64,000 nt of DNA from Paludisphaera soli (GTDB lineage: Bacteria > Planctomycetota > Planctomycetia > Isosphaerales > Isosphaeraceae): positions 558,001-622,000 of the forward strand of contig NZ_JAALJI010000001.1 in NCBI RefSeq assembly GCF_011064595.1, given 5' to 3'. The position numbers were made by a program, and so were the translations under genes. Positions 17,731 to 26,771 of this stretch are shown here, piece after piece. The notes below the pieces were generated by a model, which did not search any database, was not told the DNA's origin, and saw only the letters and a list, made by a program, of their open reading frames with translations. Numbering within the stretch: position 1 is the stretch's first letter; each line of letters opens with the position of its first letter.

Positions 17731-19083
17731 ATGCCGTGGCGACGCCTTCACCTGGTCCGGGCCCTCGCGGCCGCGGGACTGGCCAGCAGCTTGATGTTCG
17801 TGGCAAGTCCGGTCTCGGCCGCGCGGCCGACCGACGAGGCGGAGCCCAGCACGGCCCCGTCCGAGGCCTCGGCGACCGAGACGGTCGACCTCCTCAAGGC
17901 GGCCAAGGCCGGCGAGCTTGACGTGACCGCGCGGGGCCAGGGGCAGGACAAGGTCCACCTGAGCATCCGCAACGCGTCGAGCAAGCGGCTGAACGTGATC
18001 GTCCCGCCGGGCCTGGTCGCCTCCAGCAACCTCGGCCAGGGCGGCCGCGGGTTCCAGAGCATGGGCCTGGGCATGATCACCAACCGCCCGGGCAGCTTCG
18101 GCCGATTCCAGGGCTCCGGCGCCCCCGGCTTCCGCTCGATGCCCGTCGACGGCTCCGACCGCCCGTCGGTCGCGGTCCCCGTCGGCGAGACGCTGGACGT
18201 CACCGTGCCGGCCGTCTGCCTCAACTACGGCGTCGACGCCCCGACCCCGCGCGACCAGTTCACCCTCATGGACGTGGACGACTACACGGAGGACGTCCGC
18301 ATCCGCAAGGGCCTCCGCAGCCTGGCGCTGCTGGGGACCAGTCAGGGTGTCGCCCAGGCCTCCATGTGGAACCTCTGCGACGACGTGCCGTTCGAGACCA
18401 TGGCGTCGCGCGACGCCAAGTTCCTCAACGACTACGAGCTGGCCCTGGCCTCGCGGTTCGTCGAGGCCGTCGACTCGGCCGGCGGCGACGAGCTGGTGAA
18501 CCCCGCCCTCCTCACCGAAGGCCGCGTCTTCCTGAGCGTCCAGGCCGAGGGTGCCGCCGTCCAGGGCGAGGCCCGCCGCCTGGGCGAGAAGCTCGAAGGG
18601 CTCCGGCTGTTCAACCTGCCGATCCAGGTCGTCGACGCCGACGCGTCGCCGGCCGCGAAGGCCCCGGCGGTCTTCATCAAGGTCGTCCTCAGCGAGTCGC
18701 AGGCCGGCGAGACCCTCGGCCGCCTGCAGGTTGGGTACACCCTCCAGGACGACCAGTGGCGTCCGCTGGGCAAGGCGGCCATCAAGGACGCCTCGTCGAT
18801 GGCCGTGCTGGACTCGCAGACGCTCGTCCGGCTGGTCGAGCAGGAGCTGGTCGCCCGCTTCGTGACCGTCAAGCCGGCCAAGCGGACCGCGGCCAGCACC
18901 ACGCTGCGGGTCGACAACCGCCTGCCGTTCACCGTCGCGGGCCTCAGCGTCCGCGCCGGGACCTCGGCCGGCTCGCCGATCGTCCCGTTCGAGGCCGTCG
19001 GCATCGGCCCCGCGCGTTCCGCCGTCCTCTCGATCCAGGCCGGCCAGGCCCAGATCGCCGGCGTCGACCTCAACGGCCTCTGA
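17731..19083 (+). CDS. Secreted protein of unknown function
   Basis: The 450-residue product has a clear signal peptide (RALAAAGLASSLMFVASPVSA, cleavage near residue 30). After a Ser/Thr/Glu-rich linker come a glycine-rich region (NLGQGGRGFQSMGLGM) and beta-rich segments, including KVHLSIRNASSKRLNVIVPPGL and TTLRVDNRLPFTVAGLSVRAG, that resemble immunoglobulin-like or carrier folds. I do not recognise the family. It is probably periplasmic or cell-surface. The ATG at 17731 is preceded by AAAGGGAT. A hairpin at 19113-19148 probably ends transcription. Confidence 0.75.
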   Translation: MPWRRLHLVRALAAAGLASSLMFVASPVSAARPTDEAEPSTAPSEASATETVDLLKAAKAGELDVTARGQGQDKVHLSIRNASSKRLNVIVPPGLVASSNLGQGGRGFQSMGLGMITNRPGSFGRFQGSGAPGFRSMPVDGSDRPSVAVPVGETLDVTVPAVCLNYGVDAPTPRDQFTLMDVDDYTEDVRIRKGLRSLALLGTSQGVAQASMWNLCDDVPFETMASRDAKFLNDYELALASRFVEAVDSAGGDELVNPALLTEGRVFLSVQAEGAAVQGEARRLGEKLEGLRLFNLPIQVVDADASPAAKAPAVFIKVVLSESQAGETLGRLQVGYTLQDDQWRPLGKAAIKDASSMAVLDSQTLVRLVEQELVARFVTVKPAKRTAASTTLRVDNRLPFTVAGLSVRAGTSAGSPIVPFEAVGIGPARSAVLSIQAGQAQIAGVDLNGL

Positions 19084-19390: not shown

Positions 19391-19669
19391 ATGGCTCTTG
19401 AACGCAGGCGCATCCTATTCTCGGGACGAGTCCAGGGCGTCGGCTTCCGAGCGACGACGAGCTGGCTGGCCCGAGGCTTCGAGGTCGCGGGTTACGTCCG
19501 CAACCTGCCCGACGGCCAGGTCGAGGTGGTCGCCGAGGGGGACGGGCCCATGATCGACGGCTTCGTCGAGGCGATCCGGTCCGACCTGGGGGGCTTCATC
19601 CGCGACGTCGACTCGTCGCCGCTCCCCGTCGGCGAACCGCCGCTGGAAGAATTCGGCGTCCGCTACTGA
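19391..19669 (+). CDS. acyP: Acylphosphatase
   Basis: A 92-residue enzyme that hydrolyses acyl phosphates. The P-loop FSGRVQGVGFR includes the phosphate-binding Arg20, and YVRNLPDGQVEVVAEG includes the catalytic Asn38. The length is the family norm. The ATG at 19391 is used; the longer open frame upstream adds only arginine/proline-rich sequence. The ABC-2 permease begins 78 bases later. Confidence 0.94.
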   Translation: MALERRRILFSGRVQGVGFRATTSWLARGFEVAGYVRNLPDGQVEVVAEGDGPMIDGFVEAIRSDLGGFIRDVDSSPLPVGEPPLEEFGVRY

Positions 19670-19747: not shown

Positions 19748-20560
19748 ATGAAATCCATCACCATCGCCCTCGCGACGGCCAAGGAAACGATCCGCCAGCC
19801 GGCCTTCTTCGTCATCGCCTTCTTCGCCGCCGCGCTGCTGGTCGGCACGATCTTCGTGCCGTACTTCACGTTCGGCGAAGACATCAAGATGTACAAGGAC
19901 ACCGGACTGACCACGATCTCGTTCTTCTGCATGCTGCTGGCGCTCTTGACGTCCAGCTCGACGGTGGCCGAGGAGATCGAGGGCAAGACCGCCATCACGC
20001 TGCTCTCCAAGCCGATCAACCGCCGCCAGTTCATCGTCGGCAAGCTCCTGGGCATCCTGATGGGGGTGCTGGTGCTCTACGTGATCCTGGGCGGGCTGTT
20101 CGCCGGCGGGGTCTGGTACAAGATCCCCTATGACCTCCGCGAGTCGGCCGGGACGTTGGAGAGCGGAATGCGGCTGGGCCAGGTGCTCCAGGTCCTGCCG
20201 GGCCTCGTGTTGGGCTTCTTCGAGGTCACCATCCTGACGTCGATCAGCGTGGCGCTCTCGACCCGGCTGCCGATGCTCGTCAACCTGATCATCTGCATCA
20301 TGGTCTTCTTCCTGGGCCACCTCAGCCCGGTGCTGGTGACGGCGACCCAGAACGGCCAGCAGCTCATCCACTTCATGGCCCAGCTCTTCGCCTGGGTTCT
20401 GCCTCCGCTTGAGCTGTTCAACGCCGGCCCTTCGATCGCCACCGGGGCCGTGATCCCCTGGGTCGGCTACGTTCTCCCGGCGCTCGGCTGCTGCGTGTTG
20501 TACAGTGGAGCGGCGCTCTTCTTCGCGTTCCTCCTCTTCGAGGATCGCGATTTGGCCTGA
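19748..20560 (+). CDS. ABC-2 type transporter permease
   Basis: A 270-residue integral membrane protein with about six hydrophobic helices (FFVIAFFAAALLVGTIF, ISFFCMLLALLTSS, GILMGVLVLYVILGGLF, GLVLGFFEVTILTSI, LIICIMVFFLGHL, LPALGCCVLYSGAALFFAFLLF). The cytoplasmic EEIEGKTAITLLSKPINRRQFIVGK is the hallmark of ABC-2 permeases of the copper/nitrous-oxide or gliding type. No normal ABC ATPase gene lies beside it. The next gene, 149 bases on, is a half-transporter whose ATPase motifs are eroded. Confidence 0.88.
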   Translation: MKSITIALATAKETIRQPAFFVIAFFAAALLVGTIFVPYFTFGEDIKMYKDTGLTTISFFCMLLALLTSSSTVAEEIEGKTAITLLSKPINRRQFIVGKLLGILMGVLVLYVILGGLFAGGVWYKIPYDLRESAGTLESGMRLGQVLQVLPGLVLGFFEVTILTSISVALSTRLPMLVNLIICIMVFFLGHLSPVLVTATQNGQQLIHFMAQLFAWVLPPLELFNAGPSIATGAVIPWVGYVLPALGCCVLYSGAALFFAFLLFEDRDLA

Positions 20561-20709
20561 GACCGAACCGGACGGCGCGGCGGGCCCTTCGCCTTCCCGG
20601 CGTCGGCCCGCCGGCCTCCGCGACCCCTCCGGGGGGCGGGATGGTCCGCGGCGAGACGGAGCGCAGACCCGATTTCCGGCCCTGGACCCCTTGGGGGGGA
20701 GCCTCCCGC

Positions 20710-22683
20710 ATGCAAGCCGAAGCCTATTTGCGCGCCAAGAAGATCCTGAGCGCAAGCCGCTCCCCCCTGTTCGCCAGGCTGCTCGGCGCCGGCGAAGCGC
20801 TCCTGGTCCTTCTGCTGCTGATCACGGCGGCCCTCTTCGTCTCTCTCCTGTCCTCCCGGGGGGAGGTCCTGATCGCCCGCTCGGCGGCCGATCGGCTGCC
20901 GTCGTGGACGCTGAGCCGCCAGGTCGGCGAATCGGACCAGACCTATGAATACGCCGACTCCGGCGTCTTCCCGCTCATCGCCGCGAACCTGGACAGCCCG
21001 AATCCCGTGCACCGGATCGGGGCCCGCCTGCTCGCCGGCCTCACCCGCGTGTTGCCGCCCCTGAGGAACAACCTCGGCGCGCTGGCGACCCTGCTGGCCT
21101 CGGGCCTGGCGCTCATCCTCCTGCTGGCGATGACGGCGCAGGTCCGCCGGTCGCTGGTCGCCTCGGCCGTGGCCGACCTCGCCACCAACCTTCGACACCA
21201 GATCCACCGCCAGATGTACCGGCTGGGCCAGTCGTCGCTCCCCACCGAGGGCGTGGGCCCGGTGGTCAACATCTGGACCCGCGAGGTCAACGACATCCGC
21301 GACGCCCTGACGGCCGACTTCCGCGTCCGTCCCGGCATGATCGTCCTGGGGGCCGGCCTGGCCGCCATCGCGCTGTCCACCTCGCCCGTGCTCACCCTGT
21401 TCCTGGCCTCGCTCGGCTTGCTGGTCTACCTCATCGCCCGGATCCTGAACCGGGACGCCCGCTCCGCATACGACGTCGCCCTGCGCGACGCCTCGATCCA
21501 GCTCTGCCTGCTCCACGAGGATCTCGGACTGCTGCGGACGGTGCGGATCTACGGCGTCGAGGACTACGACCGGGGCCGGTTCGACGACCACCTGGAGAGC
21601 TACCGCGCGGCCGACGTCCGCCGGATGCTGACCCACGGCCGGCTCTCGACGACCTCCGCCCTGCTCTACGGCGCCGCGCTGGCCACGGCCTTCGGCCTGC
21701 TCGGCTACAACGTGCTGGTGAGGGGGCAGATCTCGCTCGCCACGATGCTGATCCTCCTGACCTCGCTCGCCGGCCTGGCCCTCCCGATCCTGGAATGGGA
21801 CCGGATGCGCAAGGCGATCCGCCACGCCGACCGCTCGGCGGCCGAGATCTTCGAGTTCCTGGCCCGGTCGCCCGAGCTGCACCAGAACGTCGGTGCCGAG
21901 TTCCTGCCGCCGCTCCGCCAGGCGATCGTCTTCGAGGACGTCACGCTCGAAAGTCGATCCGGCCGGATGCTCCTGGATCGGCTCTCGGCCGAGATCCCCG
22001 CCGGCGGCCGCACCGTCGTCGTGGGACTCGACGAGGACTCGAAGCTCGCCCTCGCCTGCCTCATCCCCCGCCTGATCGACCCCCAGGCCGGCCGCGTGCT
22101 GATCGACGGCCGCGACCTCCGCGAGATGACCCTGGAATCGGTCCGCGCCCAGGCCGCGATGGTCCTCCAGGCCGACCTCGTCTTCACCGACTCCATCCTG
22201 GTGAACATCGGCCTGGGCGATCCGCGCAACACCCTCCAGCGCGTGATCGAGGCCGCCAAACTGGCCCACGCCCACTACTTCATCCAGGACCTCCCCCACG
22301 GCTACGACACGGTCGTCGGCCCCCTGGGGCATTATCTCAAGCCCGACGAGCAGCTCCGCCTCGCGCTGGCTCGCGCGTACCTCCACGATCCGTCGATCCT
22401 GATCGTCGAGGAGTTGGCCACCCCCGTCGACGACGAGGTCAAGCTCCTGCTGGACGACACTCTCGCCCGACTCGCCGCCAATCGCACGGTGATCGTGATC
22501 GCCCACCGGCTGTCGACGATCCGATCGGCCGACAACGTCATCCTGCTGCACAACGGCCGGGTGGAGGCGATGGCCACGCCCTCGAAGCTCCAGGCCGAGA
22601 GCAAGCTCTACCGCCACATCCTGTACACCGAGTTCAACGAGTACGCCACCGGCGAGATCGAGGCGGGCCAGGTCGCCGGCTGA
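20710..22683 (+). CDS. ABC half-transporter with a degenerate ATPase domain
   Basis: A 657-residue protein with six predicted membrane helices (about 25-370) in the exporter-type arrangement, then an ABC nucleotide-binding domain (about 400-640). Domain landmarks are in order, but the Walker A position reads GLDEDSKLA (439-447) instead of GxxGxGK[ST], and the signature LSGGQ is replaced by LKPDEQ (543-548). The Walker B region ILIVEE (563-568) has Glu for Asp. The H-loop His599 in IAHRLSTIRSADNV is kept. This suggests a protein that binds ATP poorly or works as a regulatory half. The start MQAEAYLRAKK at 20710 is preferred to one 69 bases upstream. Confidence 0.85.
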   Translation: MQAEAYLRAKKILSASRSPLFARLLGAGEALLVLLLLITAALFVSLLSSRGEVLIARSAADRLPSWTLSRQVGESDQTYEYADSGVFPLIAANLDSPNPVHRIGARLLAGLTRVLPPLRNNLGALATLLASGLALILLLAMTAQVRRSLVASAVADLATNLRHQIHRQMYRLGQSSLPTEGVGPVVNIWTREVNDIRDALTADFRVRPGMIVLGAGLAAIALSTSPVLTLFLASLGLLVYLIARILNRDARSAYDVALRDASIQLCLLHEDLGLLRTVRIYGVEDYDRGRFDDHLESYRAADVRRMLTHGRLSTTSALLYGAALATAFGLLGYNVLVRGQISLATMLILLTSLAGLALPILEWDRMRKAIRHADRSAAEIFEFLARSPELHQNVGAEFLPPLRQAIVFEDVTLESRSGRMLLDRLSAEIPAGGRTVVVGLDEDSKLALACLIPRLIDPQAGRVLIDGRDLREMTLESVRAQAAMVLQADLVFTDSILVNIGLGDPRNTLQRVIEAAKLAHAHYFIQDLPHGYDTVVGPLGHYLKPDEQLRLALARAYLHDPSILIVEELATPVDDEVKLLLDDTLARLAANRTVIVIAHRLSTIRSADNVILLHNGRVEAMATPSKLQAESKLYRHILYTEFNEYATGEIEAGQVAG

Positions 22684-25921: not shown

Positions 25922-26012
25922 GAGGTCGCCTCGGTCAGGTCCCGGTTGAGAATCGGTTCTCTCCCGGTGAGCCTTGTATCGGAATCGGGGCGAGCCGGGG
26001 ACCGCAGGAAAA

Positions 26013-26771
26013 ATGGAAAATGCAGCCGTGATCCCGGCGCGGTTCGCTTCGACCCGACTGCCCGGCAAACCCCTTCTATCCGACACCGGGAAGCCGCTCA
26101 TCCAGCACGTCGTCGAGGCCGCGCGACGCGCGAAATCCCTGCGACGCGTCATCGTCGCCACCGACGACGACCGCATCGCCGACGCCGTGCGGGCCTTCGG
26201 CGGCGAGGTCGCCATGACCCGCGCCGACCACCCGACGGGCACCGACCGCGTGGCCGAGGTGGCCGCGACGATCTCCAACGCCGCGATCATCGTCAACGTC
26301 CAGGGGGACGAGCCCGAGATCGAAGGATCGTCAATCGATCGCTTGATCACGCTCTTGCAAGAGGATCCGGATGCGCCGATGGCGACCCTCGCCACCCCGA
26401 TCCGCGACGAGGCCGTCTACCGCGACCCCTCCTGCGTCAAGGTCGTCGCCTCGACCCGCGGCCGCGCGCTCTACTTCTCGCGCAGCCCGATCCCCTTCCA
26501 CCGCGACGCCGCCCCCGACTTCGCCGACCCGGCCGCCCCCGCGGCGCTCCTCCACCTGGGGATCTACGCCTACCGCCGCGACTTCCTGCTGCGGATCGGC
26601 GAACTCCCGCGGTCGCCGCTGGAGGCCGCCGAGAAGCTCGAACAGCTCCGCGTCCTGGAAGCCGGCCTCCCCATCGCCCTCGGGATCGTCGACGAGCCCA
26701 GCATCGGCATCGACACCCCAGAGGACTACCGCCGCTTCGTCGAACGCCACCGCCGCCGCCACGGGGCCTGA
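26013..26771 (+). CDS. kdsB: 3-deoxy-manno-octulosonate cytidylyltransferase
   Basis: Activates KDO as CMP-KDO for the lipopolysaccharide inner core. The 252-residue product has IPARFASTRLPGKPL (CTP loop), VIVATDDDRIADAV, TGTDRVAEV, IIVNVQGDEPEI (metal-binding Asp), CVKVV, ALYFSRSPIPF and LGIYAYRRDFL..PLEAAEKLEQLRVLE, all family signatures. The ATG at 26013 follows AGGA. It indicates that this organism makes KDO-containing LPS, in line with the GT9 gene at 35.3 kb and the LptD-like gene at 51.1 kb. Confidence 0.96.
   Translation: MENAAVIPARFASTRLPGKPLLSDTGKPLIQHVVEAARRAKSLRRVIVATDDDRIADAVRAFGGEVAMTRADHPTGTDRVAEVAATISNAAIIVNVQGDEPEIEGSSIDRLITLLQEDPDAPMATLATPIRDEAVYRDPSCVKVVASTRGRALYFSRSPIPFHRDAAPDFADPAAPAALLHLGIYAYRRDFLLRIGELPRSPLEAAEKLEQLRVLEAGLPIALGIVDEPSIGIDTPEDYRRFVERHRRRHGA

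Follow-up and report, generated by a model that had tools for sequence, protein, structure and literature searches.

The window analysed here, a stretch of 64,000 nucleotides of the Paludisphaera soli genome (contig NZ_JAALJI010000001.1, positions 558,001 to 622,000), contains a gene whose product has the architecture of an ABC exporter and altered ATPase motifs. This raises the question of what such a protein does, and whether its role is connected with that of the ABC-2 permease encoded just upstream. The features discussed below are collected in Table 1.

The ORF was read from the ATG at 20710, which gives a product of 657 aa (an alternative ATG at 20641 would extend it to 680 aa). Each homologue row was given the start nearest to M1 of the window protein, and the invariance of M1 is thus partly a matter of construction. 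Pfam analysis identified an ABC_membrane domain (residues 133–355, 50.9 bits) followed by a weak ABC_tran match (residues 422–568, 33.3 bits, with a cut-off of 25). The top NCBIfam scores were those of HepA/MsbA-type exporters, the best 25 of 112 families all lying under their curated cut-offs. The source genome (approximately 8 Mb in 197 contigs) yielded 69 PF00005 matches, and that of the window protein (37.1 bits) was among the weakest above the cut-off. An exporter-type membrane domain and then an NBD fold in one chain constitute the architecture of a type IV ABC exporter; this domain order, proposed in the initial annotation, was borne out by Pfam and by the predicted model. The motif readings made there also proved correct for the window protein: GLDEDSKLA occupies the place of Walker A and LKPDEQ that of the signature, Walker B ends in Glu-Glu (E567–E568), and His599 is present. 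The product was thereby confirmed as a half-exporter of the MsbA/P-glycoprotein type with a non-canonical P-loop, signature and Walker B Asp position (hereafter the pseudo-exporter).

Table 1. Features of the pseudo-exporter locus (positions within the window)
Feature	Position	Strand	Basis
Acylphosphatase gene, often present upstream of the ABC-2 permease gene	19391..19669	+	Neighbour family assignment
Orphan NosY-like ABC-2 permease, 270 aa, conserved upstream neighbour	19748..20560	+	Pfam, structure model, relatives' loci
ABC half-exporter with putative loss of ATPase activity (pseudotransporter); 657 aa, membrane domain at the N-terminus, NBD fold at the C-terminus	20710..22683	+	ORF, Pfam, predicted model
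Former Walker A / P-loop, residues 439–447 GLDEDSKLA	22024..22050	+	Alignment
Former signature motif, residues 543–548 LKPDEQ	22336..22353	+	Alignment
Walker B end, residues 563–568 ILIVEE; Asp to Glu, catalytic Glu568	22396..22413	+	Alignment
H-loop His599 codon	22504..22506	+	Alignment
KdsB (CMP-Kdo synthetase) gene, frequent nearby in the window's family	25974..26771	+	Neighbour family assignment

Alignment of Planctomycetota homologues revealed that the ATPase motifs are eroded throughout and that the substitutions are fixed. The pooled alignment comprised 95 distinct members of the degenerate family, i.e. 103 sequences from relatives' genomes and from a named locus collection minus the identical ones; one canonical sequence (L049), a fragment without the motifs (L050) and four very eroded ORFs (L173, L174, L184, L192) were kept outside it. 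Walker A (GxxGxGK[ST]) was intact in 0/95 and the signature (LSGGQ) likewise in 0/95 of these homologues. The fourth and sixth positions of the P-loop had retained their glycines in none and one of the 95, respectively, and its Lys position (Lys445) was Lys in 43. Among 49 family rows, the former P-loop most often carried Asp441 (44/49), Pro442 (26/49) and Glu444 (29/49). Walker B did not conform to hhhhDE, the Asp being found in 1/95, and the catalytic Glu (E568) was present in every homologue (95/95). The D-loop Asp was kept in 83/95. The H-loop His is intact in the window protein but is not a feature of the family, since only 41/95 homologues have it. Arg600 is a further conserved residue of the NBD.

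The 59 genomes examined (the window's own and those of relatives) contained a long homologue in 30 of the 37 members of the window's family (L003–L032, with 46.7–86.8% identity in the best segment, the window itself excepted). Two further genomes of this family carry fragments (G033, in two pieces, and G012), and G024 has a diverged copy of 38% identity; homologues in other families of the class display approximately 31–39% identity. Of the 50 rows in the relatives' alignment, 49 cover the NBD motifs, 48 being degenerate (the P-loop, signature and Walker B are so in all of L003–L048) and one canonical. The latter, L049, reads GGSGCGKST / LSGGQ / LDE and is an ordinary exporter from genome G045 of family f7, which has no match to the family profile at the strict cut described below. 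The best 80 loci of an independent collection comprised 55 degenerate loci and 25 canonical exporters from many phyla, the degenerate share being biased upward, as one of the two search patterns includes the degenerate EEP. Planctomycetota taxa are named in the record titles of 54 of these 55 degenerate loci, and the remaining one (L114) is titled simply 'Bacterium'; L107, one of the 54, is titled Candidatus Kuenenia, which, should this title be correct, would place it outside the class.

Close relatives with normal motifs, which would have indicated recent decay, were looked for and not found among these homologues. The motif losses cannot be attributed to recent decay, because none of the 95 distinct homologues has an intact Walker A or LSGGQ. 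Recent decay, sequencing error and chance were all ruled out, as the losses recur in many assemblies and in several families.

Profile A2, built from 20 degenerate members and applied with a cut of E≤1e-145 and three candidates scored per genome, matched 231 of 397 genomes of the class, with one match each. Among 294 genomes sampled from the phylum, the best match outside the class reached 460.3 bits (3.6e-138), and the 12 matches fetched from other classes had canonical motifs. Because the strict cut (1e-145) lies near this best canonical match (3.6e-138), motifs were read for the 30 weakest of the 231: none (0/30) had an intact Walker A or signature, and a renewed search with 40 candidates scored per genome again gave one match each at E≤1e-140. 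The figure of 231 is therefore a count by profile score, with motifs read for a part of the matches, the 30 weakest included. Four genomes (G010, G027, G460, G355) gave no match at the strict cut, yet in each of them the ABC-2 gene is immediately followed by a long ABC-like ORF that is even more degenerate. Very eroded but long exporter-like ORFs (603–646 aa) follow the ABC-2 gene at L173 (6897–8825), L174, L184 and L192, the first two belonging to genus g6 of the window's family. Since the strict cut misses strongly eroded copies, the degenerate family probably extends beyond 231 genomes.

In an unrooted tree computed without the motif columns and without L192, a very long row, a single branch (SH-aLRT 100) separated the 38 degenerate rows from the 29 canonical ones. 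An earlier tree agreed except for two control rows that had been misread; each of the two trees came from a quick search with no bootstrap. A single loss of the motifs is the simplest reading of this unrooted topology.

The degenerate NBD is under purifying selection. Five same-genus pairs gave dN/dS values of 0.14–0.24 for the NBD, 0.19–0.38 for the membrane domain and 0.05–0.17 for the ABC-2 permease. Compared with the window protein, 48 rows showed a median identity of 45.7% in the NBD and 24.2% in the membrane domain, and the median pairwise identities (membrane domain/NBD) within the degenerate set were 23.2/44.1%, as compared with 40.4/54.3, 62.3/60.2, 34.2/50.4 and 27.0/53.5% in four canonical sets. 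The degenerate NBD thus remains under much of the constraint that acts on a live NBD, with conservation somewhat below that of canonical NBDs. As the NBD is also the more conserved domain in three of the four canonical sets, this pattern reflects ordinary constraint and gives no sign of a special new role.

The AlphaFold2 model of the pseudo-exporter, made with 49 family sequences (mean pLDDT 85.0, pTM 0.75), resembles CmABCB1, TmrA, P-glycoprotein and MsbA, the best VIA hit having Z 31.7 and an rmsd of 8.2 over 519 residues. The NBD of the model superimposes on 2ghi_A at 2.0 Å over 247 residues, and the NBD fold is thus predicted to be retained. The likeness to MsbA, P-glycoprotein and TmrA lies in the domain order and the predicted fold (VIA Z 29–32 and 20–26% identity for full-length hits, among the matches listed), and a profile match to MsbA chains covers residues 119–642. 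In contrast to MsbA-type exporters, the pseudo-exporter lacks Walker A, the signature and the Walker B Asp, and its gene is paired with that of an ABC-2 permease. The model also has a long stretch between its first two membrane helices (18–49 and 121–172), which we take to be longer than that of MsbA.

For the ABC-2 permease, the predicted model (pLDDT 84.2, pTM 0.82) gave NosY as the best Foldseek rows (E 4.1e-5, TM-score 0.64) and has the NosY fold; NosY was also the sole match in a PDB sequence search at E≤1. The conserved C-terminus of the permease is close to FEDRDLA. At L186, L187, L188 and L190 its ORF has an N-terminal extension of approximately 220–310 residues.

The two genes form a conserved pair. 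Among the matches listed, 109 genomes with both genes were compared, and in 105 of them the ABC-2 gene lies directly upstream of the pseudo-exporter gene on the same strand; in the other four the genes are on different contigs. Genome G330, a single contig that is not part of this count, has them far apart. Of the degenerate loci in the named collection (from the best 80 loci), 47 extend more than 1.6 kb upstream of the pseudo-exporter gene; the ABC-2 gene was detected there in 41 of them and went undetected in six, the gaps ranging from −4 to 695 bases; at L131 the genes overlap by 4 bases. None of the 25 canonical exporter loci among the best 80 has an ABC-2 gene upstream, two of these 25 having less than 0.9 kb of upstream sequence. 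A search between the two genes detected nothing resembling a promoter; the single terminator-like site lies within the ABC-2 frame, and this yield does not exceed that of shuffled sequences and is uninformative either way.

The ABC-2 permease occurs in 381 of the 397 class genomes, i.e. in 227 of the 231 with a pseudo-exporter vs 154 of the 166 without one. Given its near-universal presence in the class, co-presence is only weakly informative and the argument for pairing is carried by adjacency. As the permease is found in many genomes with no detected pseudo-exporter, it can work without it.

The initial annotation had described the permease as an orphan with no ATPase gene nearby. Our data agree with this: the permease is real, and two pattern scans of relatives' loci detected no canonical ABC ATPase ORF beside it. 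Each scan of 78 loci yielded one ATPase-like ORF, a different one each time (at L178, on the opposite strand approximately 1.9 kb past the ABC-2 gene, and at L086, more than 5 kb past it), and some of these loci extend over only about 5–7 kb, so that nearby ATPases are perhaps undercounted. The second pattern matched 28/28 canonical controls but missed the L178 ORF. Unlike NosDFY, whose NosY the permease resembles in fold, nearly all of the 78 loci have no NosF-type ATPase gene adjacent to the ABC-2 gene, and the permease ends in the C-terminus close to FEDRDLA. No ATPase was seen beside the ABC-2 permease in 20 loci from outside the class. An ATPase for the permease could be encoded elsewhere in the genome, given its 69 PF00005 matches.

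The wider neighbourhood was compared by raw counts in related and hence non-independent lineages. Upstream, an acylphosphatase gene occurs in 29 of the 38 loci with a pseudo-exporter and in 13 of 20 additional loci of the class. Of the 38, 20 have KdsB nearby, and 19 of those belong to the window's family. LpxC and OmpH are near in 7 of the 20 further class loci, with LpxA in three of the seven, and LpxC is near in one of the 38. At L179, L181, L183, L184, L185, L188 and L191, the ABC-2 gene lies close to LpxC, OmpH and sometimes LpxA, i.e. in a lipid A gene cluster, and a gene for a GFO/IDH oxidoreductase resembling UDP-GlcNAc 3-dehydrogenase is also nearby. Of the 20 loci from outside the class, 14 have a YfcE-like metallophosphoesterase gene after the ABC-2 gene, and two have KdsB nearby. 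This metallophosphoesterase occupies the place that the pseudo-exporter has in Planctomycetia at L223 (2320–3876), L224, L226, L231 and L238, and L223 and L224 carry the acylphosphatase upstream as well. Five loci of family f3 (L075, L076, L077, L078, L081) have a CysQ/inositol-phosphatase-like ORF directly after the pseudo-exporter gene or slightly overlapping it. In the window, a conserved protein of 450 aa with no Pfam match is encoded upstream of the acylphosphatase (17731–19083). Among 26 loci of the window's family, 21 have it at the same position.

The explanation that we propose, with moderate confidence, is an ABC pseudotransporter that hydrolyses no ATP and serves the orphan NosY-like permease as an accessory or scaffold, perhaps in the assembly of outer-membrane lipids. 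A lineage of type IV (MsbA/P-glycoprotein-like) half-exporters would have lost the P-loop, the signature and the Walker B Asp, the fold being kept under selection. Its product is most likely a homodimer of the inner membrane that works with the NosY-like permease encoded just upstream, presumably in a physical complex. The NBD-fold domain would then be a protein-protein scaffold or a regulator and not a motor; judging from the motifs, ATP hydrolysis is expected to be absent, and the protein would make no use of ATP in vivo. A scaffold or regulatory role with the permease is favoured because the fold is retained, the NBD is constrained and the genes are paired. The pair may act in cell-envelope assembly, possibly of lipid A or Kdo lipid: the KdsB, LpxC, LpxA and OmpH neighbours suggest, circumstantially, outer-membrane lipid assembly, and the link to lipid A is weakened by the phylogenetic clustering of these neighbours. 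A more far-reaching version, which we regard as tentative, would assume a class-wide machine of two components, an exporter-fold homodimer and a NosY-fold permease, all of whose parts derive from ABC transporters. It would need no ABC ATPase, and the dead NBDs of the homodimer would serve the biogenesis of outer-membrane lipids as a platform for signalling or assembly.

Several other explanations have to be weighed. SUR and the degenerate site of CFTR provide analogues for a nucleotide-switched regulator, in which the altered loop would bind a nucleotide or other ligand without hydrolysis and gate the ABC-2 permease. The invariant Glu568, the Lys445 of 43/95 homologues and the D-loop Asp (83/95) may leave room for such binding, and the conservation of the NBD, together with its predicted fold, is consistent with it. 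Against this stand the loss of P-loop glycines 4 and 6 and the usually acidic loop (Asp441), which disfavours phosphate binding, and we regard this possibility as unlikely. Equally improbable, in our opinion, is a passive, gradient-driven homodimeric channel, flippase or scramblase for which the ABC-2 permease is a mere genomic neighbour. The exporter-type membrane domain is indeed retained, and the separation of the genes in G330 would fit such independence; however, their adjacency in nearly all of the genomes among the matches listed and the overlap at L131 suggest coupling, and the NBD is still under constraint.

Two readings had been offered by the initial annotation. One, a non-transport membrane sensor, may apply. 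According to the other, the protein is the degenerate partner in a heterodimeric exporter and the active half comes from a gene elsewhere; this is difficult to reconcile with our results. As described in PMC7756269, an ABC composite site combines Walker A and B and the A-, Q- and H-loops of one NBD with the signature contributed by its partner, and one site is degenerate in many ABC exporters. The source genome holds many canonical ABC proteins, and a partner half-transporter may be encoded at a distance, as canonical paralogues are present there. However, Walker A and the signature are both gone from one and the same chain in 95/95 homologues, and for this reason no complete site would remain either in a homodimer or with an intact partner; in Pdr5, by contrast, each of the two NBDs carries part of the changes in the degenerate site (PMC7756269). 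Moreover, the two pattern scans of 78 loci revealed no canonical half-transporter ORF directly adjacent. The source genome's nearest canonical paralogue in the tree (L243) is not specific to pseudo-exporter genomes, as it groups with L049 of G045 and with two Pirellulales-titled records. The heterodimer is accordingly slightly more doubtful than the nucleotide-switched regulator and the passive channel. Finally, a decaying gene hitch-hiking in a useful operon, of which the very eroded copies (L173 and L174 of genus g6, L184, L192) might be reminiscent, is very improbable in view of dN/dS values well below 1, lowest in the NBD, and of long open frames maintained across the class, even in those copies.

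The proposed pseudotransporter can be compared with known systems in which ABC proteins depart from the canonical scheme. SUR1 and CFTR have been turned into a regulator and a channel, respectively; they bind ATP and keep a hydrolysis-competent site. The pseudo-exporter family resembles them as an exporter-fold ABC protein with a role presumably other than ATP-driven pumping, and differs in that, as far as the motifs indicate, it keeps no hydrolysis-competent site. TM287/288 and TAP have one degenerate and one canonical composite site. With these two, and with Pdr5 and ABCG5/G8, the family shares non-consensus ATP-site motifs fixed by evolution. In degenerate-site exporters as portrayed in PMC7756269, one composite site is hit and the other is canonical, whereas the pseudo-exporter chain has lost the motifs of both. 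Our literature search, confined to the available portions of openly licensed papers, retrieved no description of such a degenerate exporter family.

ABC transporters are defined by their ATPase, and the family described here would, if the proposed explanation is true, clearly exemplify an ABC pseudoenzyme in bacteria. It would thereby offer a natural test of the roles that NBDs have besides hydrolysis. The envelope biology of Planctomycetia is unusual, and the nearly universal orphan NosY-like permease of this class is a target for genetics.
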